Virus record (IMG/VR): IMGVR_UViG_3300025520_000010
Coordinates: 1-34,098 of that record
From: a virus
Direction: 5' to 3' (one strand)
Length of the DNA stretch: 34,098 nucleotides
The position numbers and the translations under genes are program-made. This document shows positions 6,937 through 23,804 of this stretch, piece by piece. Each line of letters starts with the position of its first letter. Position 1 is the stretch's first letter. The notes beneath the pieces were generated by a model. It was not told the origin of the DNA. It saw nothing but the letters and a program-made list of their open reading frames with translations, and did no database searches.

Positions 6937-7234
6937 TAACGATGAAGCTGGTGTCAAGCTCTATTGGCACCGCGAGGCAATGGTCTACTTCGGGGCAACA
7001 GGTCATGGTCTGGAAGACTTTATTCCAGGCCTCGAGCCTTATTACGATGATCACATGACTGTGTTAGAGGACGTGGTTGTCAAGACCGCTTTTGATTTCA
7101 CTGAGTACAGTATTTTTCCTATTTGCCCTAGTAACTTAGAGAAGTTGCTTGAGTTACTGGAACCCACTAACTTGGTTACCCCAACACTCCAGGTTAGTCT
7201 TCCGTTCTTTAAAGCCGCTTACGGGATGAAGTGA
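6908..7234 (+). CDS. Small tandem paralogue B
   Basis: ATG at 6908 lies inside the end of the preceding gene (29-base overlap) with AAGGAG eight bases upstream. The 108-residue product repeats the family layout: DEAGVKLYWH, then MTVLEDVVVKTA, then a leucine helix (LEKLLELL), then LQVSLPFFKA. It has diverged from A and D in its first third (HGLEDFIPGLEPYYDDH). Function is unknown. Confidence 0.66.
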   Translation: MINRKRLICNNDEAGVKLYWHREAMVYFGATGHGLEDFIPGLEPYYDDHMTVLEDVVVKTAFDFTEYSIFPICPSNLEKLLELLEPTNLVTPTLQVSLPFFKAAYGMK

Positions 7235-7638
7235 TGAACCACGTTAGCGTAAGCTCAGTGCATCACTTTAAACTTTCCGAAGATGAGCTGCAAACAGTCA
7301 AAGAAATAAGCGAGATGTTGATGGAATTAACTCCAGAACAAAGCATTATGCTGAAGGCAACCCATACCGATCCCGAGACAGGGTTGTTGATAGGAACCAG
7401 CGACGAGTTTAGTAGTAGTGGGTTAGGGGTTCCCCTTGTAGCTACTTCGAAAATAGCTTTCTTTAAAGATGCGTTCGTTGTGGGGATTACGCCCGACGGC
7501 TTAACCCGTTATTACGTTAAAGACCCGGCAGATATTCTTAAGCTCCTCAAAATCGTTGACGCTGTCGTTTCGGAAGCTTTCATTGGGGTTACAACCGATG
7601 CAGTGCACGAGATGATGGGAGGTAGCATCAATGGATAA
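7234..7638 (+). CDS. Small tandem paralogue C
   Basis: The start is ATG 7234, sharing its A with the previous stop (TGATG); a GTG at 7231 is the alternative. The 134-residue product has a longer N-terminal acidic helix (SEDELQTVKEISEMLMEL). The family layout follows: PETGLLIGTSDEF, then KIAFFKDAFVVGIT, then ADILKLLKIV, then EAFIGVTTDAVHEM. It is the most diverged of the four. Function is unknown. Confidence 0.62.
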   Translation: MNHVSVSSVHHFKLSEDELQTVKEISEMLMELTPEQSIMLKATHTDPETGLLIGTSDEFSSSGLGVPLVATSKIAFFKDAFVVGITPDGLTRYYVKDPADILKLLKIVDAVVSEAFIGVTTDAVHEMMGGSING

Positions 7639-7981
7639 GTTCAACAAGAATGAAACCCAGCTAATGGATACCAGCGGGAAGGATCCCTATTATGACGACT
7701 CCGCTATTTATGTCCATAAGGAATCCGGACTGAAATTCTGGGTTAGCTATGATCAGCATATCCTGCACGAAACCTGCACCGAGATGCCAAAGCCTAGCAC
7801 CATGACCGTATTGAAGCATGTCTGGGTGGAGGCTTATTACGCCGGTGAGAGCTGCCAGTATTACGTTGAAAACATTGCTGACCTACCAGCACTGGTAAGT
7901 ATCCTGCAAAATACAGAGGGTAGCGAGGTAGCTTTGGTAGCCTCCGAAGATTTTATCAACGCGGGATTACTTAACCTATAG
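7631..7981 (+). CDS. Small tandem paralogue D
   Basis: ATG at 7631 has GGGAGG about eight bases ahead and overlaps the previous gene by eight bases. The 116-residue product has HKESGLKFWV, TVLKHVWVEAYY, ADLPALVSIL and EVALVASEDFINA in order, aligning best with paralogue A. This completes a run of four related genes directly behind the DNA polymerase gene. Function is unknown. Confidence 0.68.
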   Translation: MDKFNKNETQLMDTSGKDPYYDDSAIYVHKESGLKFWVSYDQHILHETCTEMPKPSTMTVLKHVWVEAYYAGESCQYYVENIADLPALVSILQNTEGSEVALVASEDFINAGLLNL

Positions 7982-7992
7982 CAGCTCTCAAA

Positions 7993-8004
7993 CCTATATC
8001 ACTT
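7993..8004 (+). promoter_or_regulatory. Possible early-type promoter (weak match)
   Basis: CCTATATCACTT differs by one base from the CCTATATTAC pattern found ahead of other gene blocks and lies about 45 bases before the start of the gene at 8048. It may allow that gene to be read separately from the polymerase operon. Confidence 0.4.
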
Positions 8005-8047
8005 GGGTACTAAGACTTATCATCTTGTTACCCTTGGAGATTCTGTT

Positions 8048-9800: not shown

Positions 9801-11786
9801 ATGGCCGTTCAATCCAACCGCAACAAAGGCTCCAGCGCAAGCTGGGATGGTAAAGATGGTAGTGCTGTAGAGTTCTCCGCCCTGTCGGATCTCTTCAATA
9901 CTCCTTCCATGTCGTCCGACAACCGCCAACTGCCGGAAGTCGATGAGGTCATCGAGATCCTCAAGAAGGGCTACACCGCGATGGCCGAGTCGACCATCCA
10001 GCCGGCCCAACGCGCGATCATCCCGACTGTCGACAAAGTGTCGCCGGTTATCAGCTCCACCCTGCCTGGCCTGGTCATGCACCGCATCGTCGGCCAAAGC
10101 GTCTGGGTCATGCTGGCACTGTTCTCCAACAAAGACAACGCCATCGCGACCGAAACCGTTCAAGTTCTGCAGCCTATGGGCATGCCGCACAAGACCTCGG
10201 TCCTGCTGACCCCGACCAACTACTTCACCCACGAGCTGGTCGACAGCCTGAAGAAGCACTTCAAGCAACTGCTGGAAACTCAGGGCCTGAAAGGCGACGT
10301 CGAGATCATCAACCTGATGACCGAAGACCTGGAAATGCTGAACCACTCCCAGGCCGGCGAACTGAAAGAGCGTCCTCAGCGCATCGCCAACTACCTGAAA
10401 GGCGAATGGGAAACCGCGGTCTTCTGCAAACTGTCGACCGAGTACCCGAAGCACAAGCAACAACTGCCTTCGCCGTTCAAAGATCCTGATGCACCGTACG
10501 GCAAAGACGGCTGGGCTGAAGCACGCGTTTCGGCGATCGACAACAAGGTATCGAAAGCTGGTACCCTGATGCCGTCGAACATGGAACTGGTGATCTCGAC
10601 CACCAACAACCCGAACAGCAACAACAGCAACCAGAACAACCCGAACTCGAAAGGGATCGTGCGCGCTCTGGCCACCGTTCAGCTGTCGGCGATCAGCTAC
10701 CAAATGCACATGCAGAACATCGCGGCGATCTCCCAGGCCGGCGGTCAAGCTGATGCTATCCAGGCGTTCCTGGGTATCAACGGCGGCATGTACATGAACG
10801 GCTACCGTCCGCTGCACCCGGTCATCACTCTCGACCACGCCAACGCGGAAGAGATGATGAACTACAACAACGGCCTGTTCCCGCACTACTACGCGCTGTT
10901 CGCGTTGATGTGCACCAACACCGACTACATCTTCACTGAACCACTGCGTCGCGCCAACGTCGGCTCCCGGGGTAACCTGAGCTCCTTCGAACCGCGCATC
11001 GAAGGTCTGATCGCCCAGGTCTACACCGGTGCTCGTCCACAAATGGATGAGAAAACCATCCTGGACACCGAAGCGGTCAACAAGTGGATCCATCAGAACA
11101 TCTCGCCGAACGCTCTGTTCCGCAGCAACGTGATCCTGGGCGGCCTGTCGTCCCCGGTGAACAAGCACCTGGAAGTTCTGTCGGATCCGGTTCTGGCCAA
11201 TCGTCAGTCGGCGGTACAAGCCATGATCGCGGTATTGGACGCAATGTCCAAAGGTCGCTTCTCGCAACTGGTTGCTGAAAACGTCAACGCCAAGAAAGGC
11301 TGGAAACCGGGCGACGTCGCGCTGCACCGGACCAAGATGATCGCGGTGAACGGTCTCGCGAAGAACCCACAAGGTCGCGAGCTGAACACCCTGGAAGTCG
11401 ACGAGATGTACCTGGGCACCCACAAAGGTAAGGCTGGTCTGCAACAGTCCATGAACTACCTGGGCGTGCTGTACGGCACCAACAACGAAGAAGTGCGTTC
11501 GCGTTGCCAGAAGCTGCGTATCGAAATGACCACCGGTCTCTTCGATGGCCACGTGCACATCAACAACTTCGGTTACTCCTGCGTCTGGGATCCGCATTTG
11601 ATGGCTGTTATCGGTGCCGCTCTGTCGGAAATCGGTACCCTGAACGTTGCGAACACCTACAGCTCGATGCGTCCGAACAACATGGCGTTCATGCCAATGG
11701 CTGGCCTGCAAACCGTTACCTCGGTCGGCAGCGCCAACAACATGAACATCCTGGGTGGTTTCGGTAACGGCGGGATCTGGGGCTAA
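9801..11786 (+). CDS. chmA: Chimallin-like major phage-nucleus shell protein (ChmA)
   Basis: This 661-residue protein has the strongest host-like codon use of the window, which marks a very abundant product. It lies directly ahead of the RNA polymerase beta' N-terminal gene, as phiKZ gp54 (chimallin) lies ahead of gp55. It has an exact early promoter element. ChmA self-assembles into the proteinaceous shell that encloses replicating phage DNA. Visible features are a polar N-terminal tail (1-20), an Asn/Ser/Pro-rich linker (about 269-285), and a Met/Asn/Gly-rich C-terminal tail ending MNILGGFGNGGIWG, which fits the flexible terminal segments that join ChmA subunits. Identification rests on position, length and expression signature. 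A capsid protein is the main alternative, but the phiKZ capsid gene is in a different neighbourhood. GGAG precedes the start by ten bases. Confidence 0.78.
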   Translation: MAVQSNRNKGSSASWDGKDGSAVEFSALSDLFNTPSMSSDNRQLPEVDEVIEILKKGYTAMAESTIQPAQRAIIPTVDKVSPVISSTLPGLVMHRIVGQSVWVMLALFSNKDNAIATETVQVLQPMGMPHKTSVLLTPTNYFTHELVDSLKKHFKQLLETQGLKGDVEIINLMTEDLEMLNHSQAGELKERPQRIANYLKGEWETAVFCKLSTEYPKHKQQLPSPFKDPDAPYGKDGWAEARVSAIDNKVSKAGTLMPSNMELVISTTNNPNSNNSNQNNPNSKGIVRALATVQLSAISYQMHMQNIAAISQAGGQADAIQAFLGINGGMYMNGYRPLHPVITLDHANAEEMMNYNNGLFPHYYALFALMCTNTDYIFTEPLRRANVGSRGNLSSFEPRIEGLIAQVYTGARPQMDEKTILDTEAVNKWIHQNISPNALFRSNVILGGLSSPVNKHLEVLSDPVLANRQSAVQAMIAVLDAMSKGRFSQLVAENVNAKKGWKPGDVALHRTKMIAVNGLAKNPQGRELNTLEVDEMYLGTHKGKAGLQQSMNYLGVLYGTNNEEVRSRCQKLRIEMTTGLFDGHVHINNFGYSCVWDPHLMAVIGAALSEIGTLNVANTYSSMRPNNMAFMPMAGLQTVTSVGSANNMNILGGFGNGGIWG

Positions 11787-17525: not shown

Positions 17526-18221
17526 ATGGCTCAGCCAAACAACAACGCCCGCCGCAAGACCATTTTCGACGATTGGAAACAACCCCAAGCCTCCACCATT
17601 GATCCGGTACAAGGCGGTAAATACCCGGCGACCTGGATTATCCAGCAGAAGTCGAACGGCAAGATCGTCATGAAGATCAATGACGGTATCTACGATCCGA
17701 ACTCCAAGTCCAACGTCCACAAAGAAGTGGAAATGAACTGGTCGGACCGGAACGCCCTGATGGAAGGCATCATGGAAGCCTGTTCGGATCCATCGTTCGA
17801 AACCAGTCAGTTGGTCGTTCGTAAGAAGGACTTCATCAAGTCTGGTGGCCAGAGCAAGATCTCGGACAACCCGATCGTTAAAGCGATGTTCACCATCGAC
17901 CGCGAGAAGAACTCCGGCGTGATCAGCGTGACCTACCGTAAAGGTGAGTACAACGCCAAGATCATCTTCCGCGGCGCCAACGATACCGTTCTGTACCGTA
18001 AGGACTCTACCGGTAACAAGGTTGAAGACCACGGTACTCTGTCTCGTTGGGCAGCCCGAGCCTGGGTTAAGTGGCACCAGGATCCAGTCAACCAGATGGA
18101 ACGTGAGATGTACGAACCGCCTGCTCCGAAAGAAGGGGCTTTCCAGGCGAAGGACACCTCTAACAAGGGTAGCGGTAACAGCGACTTCGATTCGTCTTAT
18201 GACGACGACGCCGACTTCTAA
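17526..18221 (+). CDS. Probable nucleic-acid-binding protein with acidic tail (ChmC- or SSB-like)
   Basis: This 231-residue protein is strongly host-codon-adapted. Residues about 30-170 are rich in beta strands (TWIIQQKSNGKIVMKIND, GVISVTYRKGEYNAKIIF) with one helix between them (DRNALMEGIMEACS). This order reminds me of Whirly/PC4-type single-strand nucleic-acid-binding folds. The tail (from about 190) is disordered and ends SSYDDDADF, like the acidic, Phe-terminated tails of SSB proteins that recruit partners. Nucleus-forming phages encode an abundant conserved RNA-binding protein, ChmC, in this part of the genome, and this gene is a candidate for it. A dedicated SSB is the alternative. AAGGA precedes the start; a terminator follows. 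Confidence 0.6.
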   Translation: MAQPNNNARRKTIFDDWKQPQASTIDPVQGGKYPATWIIQQKSNGKIVMKINDGIYDPNSKSNVHKEVEMNWSDRNALMEGIMEACSDPSFETSQLVVRKKDFIKSGGQSKISDNPIVKAMFTIDREKNSGVISVTYRKGEYNAKIIFRGANDTVLYRKDSTGNKVEDHGTLSRWAARAWVKWHQDPVNQMEREMYEPPAPKEGAFQAKDTSNKGSGNSDFDSSYDDDADF

Positions 18222-18349: not shown

Positions 18350-19138
18350 ATGAACGAATCGAGTAACACTCTAGAGGATCTTCTCAGTGAGCAGCAGCTC
18401 AAGGAGTATCGGTCTAAAGAGTATCCGTTCAATACGAATTTCCTAGGTCAGATTCTGAAAGAGAAGTTAAAGGAAGATCCAGCCTACGAGGTTTGGGCTC
18501 CGTTCTTCTTTTGCCGGTATATGGCGCTAAGAAGAAATAAAGACACCCCTTCTGTTATACACAGCCCGCTTTTATTTATAAGTAACAAAGGTAAAGTGGT
18601 TAAGTTCAATAAAGGGGAATACCATCCACTAGCTATAGCGACCTATCAAGAAAAGTACCCCGTAATTGTTGCAACCTTTGGATATAAAGAAACTTACACT
18701 TTAGTGCTACACCGCGCACTAGCTTCCGTGTTCATACCCCTTCCTCCGGAGCTGAAGTTATTCCACCCAAAAGATCTGGAAGTCAATCACATTGATGGGG
18801 ATAAGGCTAATTTTGAACTGGATAACCTTGAATGGTCGACTCATTCTAGGAATCAGCTCCACGCTGCTGAAAATGGGCTATTTAAATCCGGAAAGGATTC
18901 TACCTTCACCAAACCAGTAAAGGGAAGGATTGAATTTGGACTTCACTCTGGACATGAGTTTATCCTGCACGGCCTTGCGGACTACAAGAAATATAAATTT
19001 ACCCAATCCAATATTGTAGCGTGTTGTAAGGGACGAGTTAAAACCCACAAGAAATGTAGTTGGAGTTACGCCACAGAACTTGAGCTAACTCAACTGCCTA
19101 GTGGGTTGACGGAGGCGATGGTAAATGATCTAGGTTGA
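18350..19138 (+). CDS. Free-standing HNH homing endonuclease
   Basis: This 262-residue protein has a clear HNH_3-type site: V145-N-H147-I-D-G-D, followed by the ELDNLEW strand and THSRNQLHA. The invariant His and Asn of the nuclease fold are therefore present. The C-terminal segment (KFTQSNIVACCKGRVKTHKK, then SW) looks like the DNA-binding modules found in phage homing enzymes. Such genes spread by cutting related phage DNA that lacks them. Its codons are more AT-rich than those of its neighbours and it sits alone between two terminators, both consistent with insertion. No intron boundary is seen around it. Confidence 0.85.
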   Translation: MNESSNTLEDLLSEQQLKEYRSKEYPFNTNFLGQILKEKLKEDPAYEVWAPFFFCRYMALRRNKDTPSVIHSPLLFISNKGKVVKFNKGEYHPLAIATYQEKYPVIVATFGYKETYTLVLHRALASVFIPLPPELKLFHPKDLEVNHIDGDKANFELDNLEWSTHSRNQLHAAENGLFKSGKDSTFTKPVKGRIEFGLHSGHEFILHGLADYKKYKFTQSNIVACCKGRVKTHKKCSWSYATELELTQLPSGLTEAMVNDLG

Positions 19139-20808: not shown

Positions 20809-20835
20809 ACTAATTTAGATAGATGGAGAGCAATG

Positions 20836-22281
20836 ATGGCTGAAATTACAACTATACTGCAACAAGCGCTTTTTGGTATTGGTACTGCTCAACATGACCA
20901 CGTCCATCGGCATAATACCCTGCATCTGGAAAACCTGGAGATCGACAAGCTTCGCCACGAACAGGAAAACGGCGGGATCCTCCCACGTACTCTGAACGAC
21001 ATCGCGATGAACTCCGGTCAGCTTTGCTCTCAGCCACAAGGTTTCGTCTCGGTCGAAGACGGGATGAACATGCGACGCGGTATCTGCCTGCTGAAGTTCC
21101 AGGTCTACTCGAACGCTGCCGAATCGTCTGACATGTCCGTGGTCTGCTACTTGGTCGGCGGTAACAGTTCCGCTGAGAACGGCCTGGACGGTAATACTCG
21201 TCTGCAGCCTGTTCGTTGCTGGAGTACGTTGACGTCTCAGTCCAGCGACGGTCAAGGTTATCCAACAGTGCGCCAAGTTGTGGATACCACTCACCAGTTC
21301 CTGCTGGGTGATCCGTACGGCGCCAAAGAGATGGCAGCGGTTCGTCCGTATGACGTGGCCAGTGCTGCATTGGGCTACGCTGTTACTGACGGCGACGGTT
21401 CGGCTCAGAACTATTGCGGCGTAGCAAACTCTGACCTGACCAATCAGTTGCTCATGTCGAAGACTCAGAACCTGAACCCAACTCACTACTCGAAAGAGCT
21501 GTTGAAGTTGGCAGTCCAGACTGGCGATGAAGTCAGTCATAACGGACAGGATCTGGCATGGGCAATCGGTGACTACATGACCACCAGCAGCCTGAACGAG
21601 ATCTCTCCGCACGATAACCCATTCATGCAGACCATGATGAGTGTGCTGAGCGTCCACAGTCTGGCAAGCTTCCGTGGCTGGTCGGTTGATGAAATGGTTG
21701 AAGTATGGCCTAACTTCCTCGACGTATTGAACATGGACAACATGGACGTTACCCGCTTTGCGGCTGACGATACTACGTTGATTACCAGCGATTATGGTCG
21801 CGTTAACCAACACGAGATCATTGCATCTGAGGCCGCCATGATGTGTGTCCACCAGTTGCTGGCCAGCGGTCTCATGTCGTACAAATTCAGCGCCACCAAC
21901 AACCCTACTGAGTTTGACGGGGTAAGCGGTGATGAAGGCGGTGGGGTATCGTTCTCTCCAGGCCAAGCAATGTCGGTTCTGGACAATGATACAAACATGG
22001 AGGGTCGTGTTGAAAGCTTTAACCGTCACTTCACTGACGCGTTCTTTGCCAAGTACACCGGTCCATATGCGCATCTGCGCACGCTCATCAACCTGAGCAT
22101 GGAATGCCACATGTTCGGTGAGACCCGCGTGACGATCTCCTTCGGTGGTGATTATCACGGTGCCAAAACCTTCAGTAACGCAACCTATTACATCAACCAC
22201 TCTAGCTCCTCGATCTCCGGTACCGAAACCGGATTGACCGAATCGCGGAACTACTTGCACAACATCAAGGAATACTTCTAA
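20836..22281 (+). CDS. Conserved phage-nucleus protein candidate (phiKZ gp69-like, possible PicA/Imp1)
   Basis: ATG 20836 has GGAG eight bases ahead; ATG 20833 is equally in frame. The 481-residue product uses host-like codons and has no enzyme motif, signal peptide or membrane segment. The N-terminus is helical and His-rich (AQHDHVHRHNTLHLENLEID), followed by mixed alpha/beta sequence and a Gly/Ser-rich end. By position, after the gp68-like gene and before a gp70-like gene, it corresponds to phiKZ gp69, which I recall being reported as a factor for selective protein import into the phage nucleus (PicA/Imp1). The function is inferred from position, not motif. It is co-transcribed with its neighbours (24- and 11-base gaps). 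Confidence 0.55.
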   Translation: MAEITTILQQALFGIGTAQHDHVHRHNTLHLENLEIDKLRHEQENGGILPRTLNDIAMNSGQLCSQPQGFVSVEDGMNMRRGICLLKFQVYSNAAESSDMSVVCYLVGGNSSAENGLDGNTRLQPVRCWSTLTSQSSDGQGYPTVRQVVDTTHQFLLGDPYGAKEMAAVRPYDVASAALGYAVTDGDGSAQNYCGVANSDLTNQLLMSKTQNLNPTHYSKELLKLAVQTGDEVSHNGQDLAWAIGDYMTTSSLNEISPHDNPFMQTMMSVLSVHSLASFRGWSVDEMVEVWPNFLDVLNMDNMDVTRFAADDTTLITSDYGRVNQHEIIASEAAMMCVHQLLASGLMSYKFSATNNPTEFDGVSGDEGGGVSFSPGQAMSVLDNDTNMEGRVESFNRHFTDAFFAKYTGPYAHLRTLINLSMECHMFGETRVTISFGGDYHGAKTFSNATYYINHSSSSISGTETGLTESRNYLHNIKEYF

Positions 22282-22292
22282 GGTGACCCGCC

Positions 22293-23804
22293 ATGAATGA
22301 ACTTAACAAGCTGTACAAGGACATGTTGTTGTCCTGGAACACCCTCGTCAAGAACGATGGTCGTATCCTGCTGGACTTGAACGGCGAAGAGTATCCCATC
22401 ACCATCGACGGGATGAACCTGTACCTGCCTACCACTGACGTCCTGGACGAAGTGGCGGTTGGGAAAGTCTTCTGGCACCCTGCCTGCGAGGATATTACCT
22501 CGAAGGAAACCGAAGTCTTCAAAGTGTTGCGTAAGGTTACTTGCCTGCGTCTCCTGAATGCCTTCCGCTCGACGCCTCCGGTGTTGTTCGCCGTAGCTGG
22601 ACCCAAACCCAAGAGTTCGTGGAACCAGCGCGTGCTGGATCTTCTGGAACCTCTCAAGGGCGCTAAAGGTGCAGTGGTTAAGGAACTCGAAGACCTGTTC
22701 GGTCGTCTGCACGTAGAAGTGGAAGAGAACGGTCTGGATAACCGCTTTGTTCACTTCAAGACTTCCAAGTCCAGTGGCAAACTGTCCAAGTCCAGTGGCG
22801 AGAAGGTGTACTACACCACCAAGCCGGAGTTCCCGTTCTACAATGAACTGGTTCGCCGCCTGGCTCGTACTGAAGGCAAGACGGATAACCAACTGATCGA
22901 GATCAACAACCATAGCGTAAGTCGTGCTGCGGTTAAGTTGGCTATCCATCTGTTCCAGTTCATTGTTCCAGCGGTCTTGTCGCCGGATGACCACATCCAC
23001 GAAGCGAACTCCCCGATTGCAGCGCGCATGGTTTCGTACCTGGGCTGTTACGCGGATATCGCTGAGCAGATCAACAAGGTTCAAGGTACTTTCCGTAGCG
23101 AGTTCGCTAAGGCGGGTATCTACCCGGTTAATCTGAGCTGGACGGAAGATCTGGAGAATCTGCCCGAGTGGTACAAGCAAGTTCCGAAGATGGACTACAA
23201 CACCCACAACACCCACGAAGAAACCGTCCACCAAGCAGCAGGACGTCAAGACTTCGCGGGACTGATGTCGGTGAGCAGTAACGTTCATCAACAACCAGTG
23301 CAACAAACCCCGGGTGCTCAGGTTCAGCAAGTAGGTCCTGGCATTGACCCGCTGACTGGTTTCGTGATCACTCCACCGCCTCAAGTGTTGGCGTCCGACC
23401 GTCTGACCCGCTACGAGTGCAACTTCAGCACTGGTCGCGTGACTCACTACGGCGTCGACACCATGACCAACCTGCCGGTCATGTACATCTGCACCAAGCA
23501 GGGTTCGTTCCTGGAGCGTCAAACTCCAAACCCGCAAGCTGGGATGATGAACATGTTGGGCGGCTTCAACATGGGCATGGGCAATGGCATGAATGGCATG
23601 AATGGCATGCAGATGAACATGGGGATGGGCGGTGGTCAGCCTATGATGCTCCCTAATGGCATGATCCAACTGCCAAACGGCGCGGTGATCCATCCGTCCC
23701 AGCTCAACCAGCAACAACCCGTTATGCCAACTGGTTCTCCAAGCGTAACAAACTTGGATAACAACAGTGGCGGCGGTTTCGGTAACAGCCCAGCCTGGGG
23801 TTAA
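22293..23804 (+). CDS. gp70-like protein with chimallin-like C-terminal tail
   Basis: This 503-residue protein is strongly host-codon-adapted. Residues 1-310 look folded, apart from a Ser/Lys-rich loop with a small duplication (SKSSGKLSKSSGEK, about 158-171). From about 310 on it is largely disordered, with Gln/Pro-rich sequence, a short folded-looking island (RYECNFSTGRVTHYGVDT), then a Met/Gly/Asn-rich tract. That tract contains MNMLGGFNMG (419-428), and the protein ends GGGFGNSPAWG. Both resemble the end of the chimallin-like protein (MNILGGFGNGGIWG). This suggests it binds the shell lattice through a mimic of the chimallin tail. It is last in the operon, followed by a terminator. No enzyme motif is seen. 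Confidence 0.6.
   Translation: MNELNKLYKDMLLSWNTLVKNDGRILLDLNGEEYPITIDGMNLYLPTTDVLDEVAVGKVFWHPACEDITSKETEVFKVLRKVTCLRLLNAFRSTPPVLFAVAGPKPKSSWNQRVLDLLEPLKGAKGAVVKELEDLFGRLHVEVEENGLDNRFVHFKTSKSSGKLSKSSGEKVYYTTKPEFPFYNELVRRLARTEGKTDNQLIEINNHSVSRAAVKLAIHLFQFIVPAVLSPDDHIHEANSPIAARMVSYLGCYADIAEQINKVQGTFRSEFAKAGIYPVNLSWTEDLENLPEWYKQVPKMDYNTHNTHEETVHQAAGRQDFAGLMSVSSNVHQQPVQQTPGAQVQQVGPGIDPLTGFVITPPPQVLASDRLTRYECNFSTGRVTHYGVDTMTNLPVMYICTKQGSFLERQTPNPQAGMMNMLGGFNMGMGNGMNGMNGMQMNMGMGGGQPMMLPNGMIQLPNGAVIHPSQLNQQQPVMPTGSPSVTNLDNNSGGGFGNSPAWG
22764..22799 (+). repeat. Short direct repeat in the gp70-like gene
   Basis: TCCAAGTCCAGTGGC occurs at 22764-22778 and again at 22785-22799, with a 6-base spacer. 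It encodes SKSSG twice and looks like a recent small duplication inside a disordered loop. Confidence 0.85.
23583..23609 (+). repeat. Tandem 9-base repeats in the gp70-like tail
   Basis: AATGGCATG is repeated three times head to tail and encodes Asn-Gly-Met three times within a longer Met/Gly/Asn-rich tract. Such repeats can expand or contract by slippage, so the tail length may vary between relatives. Confidence 0.9.

Follow-up and report, generated by a model that had tools for sequence, protein, structure and literature searches.

Why should a protein that does not belong to the chimallin lattice end in much the same peptide as chimallin itself? The question is raised by a 34-kb piece of an EL-like chimallivirus genome, taken from an IMG/VR virus record and referred to here as the window, in which the nuclear shell protein ChmA has the C-terminus ILGGFGNGGIWG and a gp70-like protein has the C-terminus SGGGFGNSPAWG. 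It was originally predicted that the second protein could dock on the shell through this tail. We ask what the two proteins are, whether their tails are related beyond this clade, and which explanation of the likeness best accounts for the evidence.

The two proteins and their setting

The window carries gp67, an HNH gene, gp68, gp69, gp70 and the nvRNAP beta gene in the conserved chimallivirus order, and its gp69-gp70 order is that of gp69-gp70 in phiKZ and of gp63-gp64 in PhiPA3 (Table 1).

Table 1. Positions in the window of the ChmA, gp69-like and gp70-like genes and of the segments discussed
Feature	Position	Strand	Basis
ChmA (chimallin, nuclear shell protein), 661 aa	9801..11786	+	PHROG 4795, PDB fold matches
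ChmA last 10 residues GGFGNGGIWG, positional equivalent of 201phi2-1 CTS2	11754..11783	+	position; predicted disorder
gp69-like gene (PicA/Imp1 position), directly 5' of gp70	20833..22281	+	PHROG 3141; gene order
gp70-like protein, 503 aa	22293..23804	+	PHROG 3520; synteny; annotation
gp70 folded N-terminal part, residues 1-300	22293..23192	+	pLDDT; invariant columns
gp70 small four-stranded beta module, residues 367-412	23391..23528	+	predicted structure; disordered linkers on both sides
gp70 internal MNMLGGFNMG, residues 419-428	23547..23576	+	M/G/N-rich low-complexity; not conserved
gp70 C-terminal tail GGGFGNSPAWG, ChmA-tail-like peptide	23769..23801	+	tail comparison; residues 472-503 disordered

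The identity of ChmA is clear both from a profile search, in which its gene product matched PHROG 4795 'nuclear shell protein' (E 7.5e-101), and from its predicted structure, which gave nine matches in the PDB fold search at E <= 0.001, every one to a chimallin/PhuN chain (3.9e-21 to 2.2e-17; among them 7sqs, 7sqq, 7sqt and 8fne). Residues 619-661 have pLDDT below 50 and are disordered in the single-chain model, as a C-terminal segment (CTS) would be. In 201phi2-1 ChmA, CTS2 comprises the final ten residues (622-631) and docks on a protomer of the neighbouring tetramer, around the tetramer corner; ChmA that lacks it does not self-assemble in vitro, and the contacts that CTS2 makes in 201phi2-1 differ from those in Goslar (PMC9365700), which is what co-variation of the tail would need. 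Judged from its place in the sequence, GGFGNGGIWG is the positional equivalent of CTS2 in the window ChmA. The premise of the original prediction, that chimallin termini dock on neighbours, is thus in line with published work, and the end of ChmA here corresponds to the neighbour-docking segment (PMC9365700).

By sequence and gene position, the gp70-like protein is the orthologue of EL gp35, phiKZ gp70 and PhiPA3 gp64. EL gp35 is 58% identical to it, both it and phiKZ gp70 match PHROG 3520 (E 7.5e-94 and 4.1e-122, respectively), and PhiPA3 064 is tied to the family by synteny and annotation. These proteins resemble the window protein in profile, annotation and location between the PicA/gp69 and nvRNAP beta genes, whereas they differ at the tip, which is xLL or xLI in phiKZ-like members and a ChmA-like aromatic tail in the window gp70. 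For the tail of the phiKZ-like members, no function was described in the literature searched. Within the family, shell localisation has been published for PhiPA3 gp64 only, whose GFP fusion is found at the nuclear shell and which is expressed early and present in ChmB pulldowns (PMC10643120). The expectation that the window gp70 would be a shell-associated protein is supported by its orthologue, which is shell-localised as a GFP fusion and co-purifies with ChmB (PMC10643120).

The orthologue is probably also the import factor Imp3, a reading reached by elimination: phiKZ 067 is ChmC and phiKZ 069 is PicA (PMC12571901), and a review names PicA, ChmC and Imp3 as shell proteins from that same study (PMC12908238). 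Imp3 has been reported to be needed for Imp1 function (PMC13282480). Alternatively, Imp3 could be gp375 instead, but gp375 is reported in Pseudomonas phages only.

In the structural model, the gp70 body (residues 1-300) has pLDDT of about 80-97 over most of its length and contains nearly all invariant columns of the gp70 alignments. It is followed by a disordered linker (301-359), the small beta module (367-412) and an M/G/N-rich C-terminal region of roughly 90 residues that is mostly disordered, including residues 472-503, and has the tail at its end. This predicted layout suits a tethered peptide reaching for a groove. For the body, no resembling solved structure was found within reach of a PDB fold search, which returned nothing below E 0.3, and of structural re-alignment, which covered residues 359-415 only, with ordinary beta-sheet matches at Z 6 or less, and barely tested the N-terminal part. 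A Pfam search of gp70 gave no match and a PDB sequence search only weak, repeat-like ones. At E <= 0.001, a viral fold library returned uncharacterised phage proteins only, including those of Klebsiella phage Miami, Erwinia phage PhiEaH1 and the Ralstonia phages RP12 and RSF1, and collection scans that started from gp70 of phiKZ and of Goslar returned near-identical records only.

Tail likeness in the window and across phages

Both tails read exactly as originally described, and the likeness between them is stronger than composition would give: the C-terminus-anchored score of 44 was reached by only 2 out of 6000 shuffles of the gp70 tail letters. In a complete-looking close relative of 234 kb (G001), gp70 is the best match to the ChmA tail among 240 other called proteins (it scores 32, and the next-best protein 17). 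The match is kept in all close relatives found, where ChmA invariably ends GGFGNGGIWG and gp70 ends GF(G/S)NSP(A/S)WG.

The same cannot be said of MNMLGGFNMG, which had been proposed as a second, internal copy of the tail. The stretch is present, and its score is reached by 0.3% of shuffled stretches. However, it lies in low-complexity M/G/N-rich sequence, is absent from more distant homologues, and is lost in the relative L004, which is 84% identical and keeps the ChmA tail. We therefore reject it as a second copy or docking site and count one conserved tail copy, not two.

For the comparison across phages, ChmA-gp70 pairs were drawn from isolates and IMG/VR contigs as well as from the window, several of them from fragments, and we scored the tails by a double-centred, C-terminus-anchored BLOSUM62 alignment. 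In the swap test, gp70 tails were permuted over ChmA tails across clades and then across 14 broad lineages. A lack of co-variation between phages had been named as one refutation of the original prediction, but co-variation is what we observed: across the 14 lineages, the gp70 tail fits the ChmA tail of its own phage better than those of others (p < 1e-4), in a design that was chosen after the first tails had been seen and with lineages that are not fully independent. The result does not depend on the window lineage. With the 13 remaining lineages, p was at most 3e-4 for tail lengths of 5-12, for three gap settings and without gaps; it stayed at or below 0.001 when any further lineage was dropped, and in an earlier run of this window-less comparison, for which the clades differed slightly, p was 0.002 at most. 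Sister-pair contrasts, which are independent of each other, were positive in 13 cases and negative in two, with two ties (Wilcoxon p 0.002; 0.002-0.016 at other distance cut-offs).

On the gp70 side, the signal is confined to the extreme end. The effect, which is 3.5 at the very end, was only 1.1 (p 0.06) once the gp70 10-mer was shifted by one residue; larger shifts left none, whereas shifts on the ChmA side led to a slower fall-off, with weak signals at offsets 8 (p 0.015) and 10 (p 0.043). An unanchored local alignment of the last 14 residues in the first 25 clades gave no signal, which ties the relation to the exact C-terminal end.

Among its neighbours, gp70 stands alone in this co-variation. 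As syntenic controls, the tails of gp65, gp66, gp67, gp68 and gp69 showed no co-variation with the ChmA tail (p 0.38-0.94). PicA/Imp1 (phiKZ gp69) is a shell-associated import factor encoded directly upstream of gp70, but its tail does not follow that of ChmA, as the gp70 tail does. In an unbiased scan of 13 whole genomes, with open reading frames called mechanically, gp70 ranked first out of 106 conserved families, and first out of 101 without the window lineage. In the genome-wide test on eight lineages without the window, gp70 reached only a modest p of 0.035, and 95 out of 4979 family pairs scored as high. Several other family pairs co-vary far more strongly than ChmA and gp70 (10.6 for the top pair; G001 125746-126810 and G001 7049-8035); these are possibly virion proteins with a common C-terminal signal, or paralogues.

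The match is uneven among lineages. Clear matched tails were found in the window lineage, G013 (ChmA FFNPQY, gp70 FDNPVY), D6 (FGMYSNLV and YGGYTNFQ), SXP01 and its relatives (GFTGAYSHQY and GFGTGNINQY in SXP01), FishSpeaker and Goslar (FNLF and VNRF). By eye, the match is weak or absent in phiKZ, 201phi2-1, PhiPA3, Noxifer, the Vibrio phages, Miami and much of the EL side branch. The xLL or xLI end is conserved within the phiKZ group as its own, and the rank of gp70 among the proteins of a genome as a match to ChmA is mixed, from 1 down to 142 out of 206, so that this ranking is unconvincing when taken alone. Since the phiKZ-like tails are unmatched although shell localisation has been shown in that very group, the tail cannot be the sole tether in every lineage. 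In the Serratia and Klebsiella phages Moabite, PCH45 and FBKp24, the tails of both ChmA and gp70 are, in contrast to other lineages, rich in arginine (SYGFGR and FGRYRR in FBKp24), and gp70 of RAY and of Proteus phage 10 is also Arg-terminated.

Possible causes of the likeness

We suggest, with moderate confidence, that the disordered gp70 tail docks in the ChmA groove for CTS2 and so tethers import machinery to the shell. According to this idea, gp70 is a conserved shell-associated chimallivirus protein, probably Imp3, whose last 8-10 residues in many lineages imitate the end (CTS2) of ChmA from the same phage. The tip would bind the groove of a ChmA protomer that normally takes CTS2 of the neighbouring tetramer, whether at lattice edges, at vacancies or in competition with the subunit's own tail, and the docked tip would anchor gp70, together with the adjacently encoded PicA-type import machinery, to the shell. 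CTS2 of 201phi2-1 and Goslar and the gp70 tail are alike in that both are the last residues of their chain, follow a disordered linker and form a short peptide rich in glycine and aromatic residues. They differ in that CTS2 docks on a neighbouring protomer of its own lattice in these two phages (PMC9365700), whereas the gp70 tail sits on an unrelated, non-lattice protein. The tail-docking idea of the original prediction thus stands as regards the co-variation of the tails, the shell-associated orthologue and the CTS2 equivalence, and falls as regards the internal second copy. What the analysis shows is the likeness of the tails, their co-variation at the exact end, the orthology and the disorder, whereas the binding of gp70 to ChmA through the tip, the identity of gp70 with Imp3 and its role in import are inferred; similarity to a solved complex underlies no claim made here.

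The main rival is a third partner of both tails: another phage protein, such as the shell organiser ChmB or an assembly chaperone, might recognise the ends of ChmA and gp70, which would then have converged on its pocket. Such a partner would yield an identical pattern of co-variation at the exact C-terminus, and PhiPA3 gp64 is indeed present in ChmB pulldowns (PMC10643120). However, we consider it unlikely because CTS2 already has a known partner, which is ChmA itself (PMC9365700), and no other conserved family co-varies with ChmA as strongly as gp70 does. ChmB (PhiPA3 gp2) in particular is comparable to gp70: it is not ChmA but is associated with the ChmA lattice, within which it has been proposed to lie (PMC10643120). 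However, it is unrelated to gp70, and no CTS2-like tail has been described for it. Its homologues are reported from Pseudomonas-infecting phages only (PMC10643120), so ChmB cannot account for Goslar, SXP01 and D6.

Less likely again is that the co-variation stems from the composition of each genome, or from relaxed drift of tails that are both disordered, rather than from a shared partner. The matched tails of Moabite, PCH45 and FBKp24 do share composition, as this would have it, but the co-variation persists when the R-rich group is dropped, and shuffling the letters inside the gp70 tails removes it (5.9 against 2.7 +- 0.7, without the window lineages). Moreover, drift would hardly confine the gp70-side signal to C-terminal offset 0 and leave none elsewhere in the same disordered tail, or spare the neighbouring proteins, including gp67 with its G/N-rich tail.

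Lower still we place the possibility that the folded body or the beta module of gp70 binds the shell everywhere, and that the tail only fine-tunes or auto-regulates this, for example by competing with ChmA tails and thus limiting lattice growth at import sites. It would explain how PhiPA3 gp64 reaches the shell (PMC10643120) although phiKZ-like gp70 has no matched tail, and why conservation of the protein lies in the N-terminal body; it leaves unexplained the matched selection on the extreme tip in many lineages. Finally, a chance match or a recent, functionless copy peculiar to the window clade is hardly credible: the codons GGT TTC GGT AAC are identical in the window's two tails, and the match in this clade is far above that in other lineages, but the tail was kept although the last 22 codons show 34 synonymous and 21 non-synonymous differences in pairwise comparison, the tail codons of L004 differ from those of its own ChmA while the residues are the same, and independent lineages show the same relation.

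Returning to docking by CTS2 mimicry, we speculate more tentatively that it is family-wide, i.e., that a component from outside the lattice is brought to the phage nucleus by mimicry of the nucleus's own lattice-joining peptide. The gp70/Imp3 tails would then fill empty CTS2 grooves at vacancies or edges, where they might mark or stabilise import sites, and the mimic would co-evolve with ChmA. Because each tail should function only with its own ChmA, lineage specificity is predicted, and, if this is true, the co-evolution would also bar the import parts of co-infecting phages from docking. The component parts of this idea are already known, whereas the tail mimicry and the co-variation appear to be new; the literature searched, which covers the key papers and preprints incompletely, contains no mention of mimicry between the gp70 and ChmA tails. 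The idea bears on the attachment of import factors to the chimallin shell and on where a channel could be sited in a closed lattice, and a 10-residue peptide that a probable import factor has in common with the shell subunit would offer a concrete, mutable attachment site.

Neighbouring genes

Between the gp67 and gp68 homologues, at 18350-19138, the window carries an HNH_3 endonuclease gene (PF13392, E 2.2e-8); in EL, RisingSun and FishSpeaker, no gene of any kind was observed at this position. Outside the phiKZ group, the gp69/PicA tails share a conserved aromatic end (EYF, NYF, EYMNF, YFN), without co-variation with ChmA. The gp67-family protein of the window (17526-18221) has a tail that reads DFDSSYDDDADF, and the family, of which the RNA-binding ChmC (phiKZ 067) is a member, ends in a G/N-rich linker followed by an acidic tip (DFDDDIDF, FDEDIPF, FAEDIPF; relatives at L012:9519-10283 and L021:21160-21900). 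This acidic tip closely resembles the one through which bacterial single-stranded DNA-binding proteins bind their partners.
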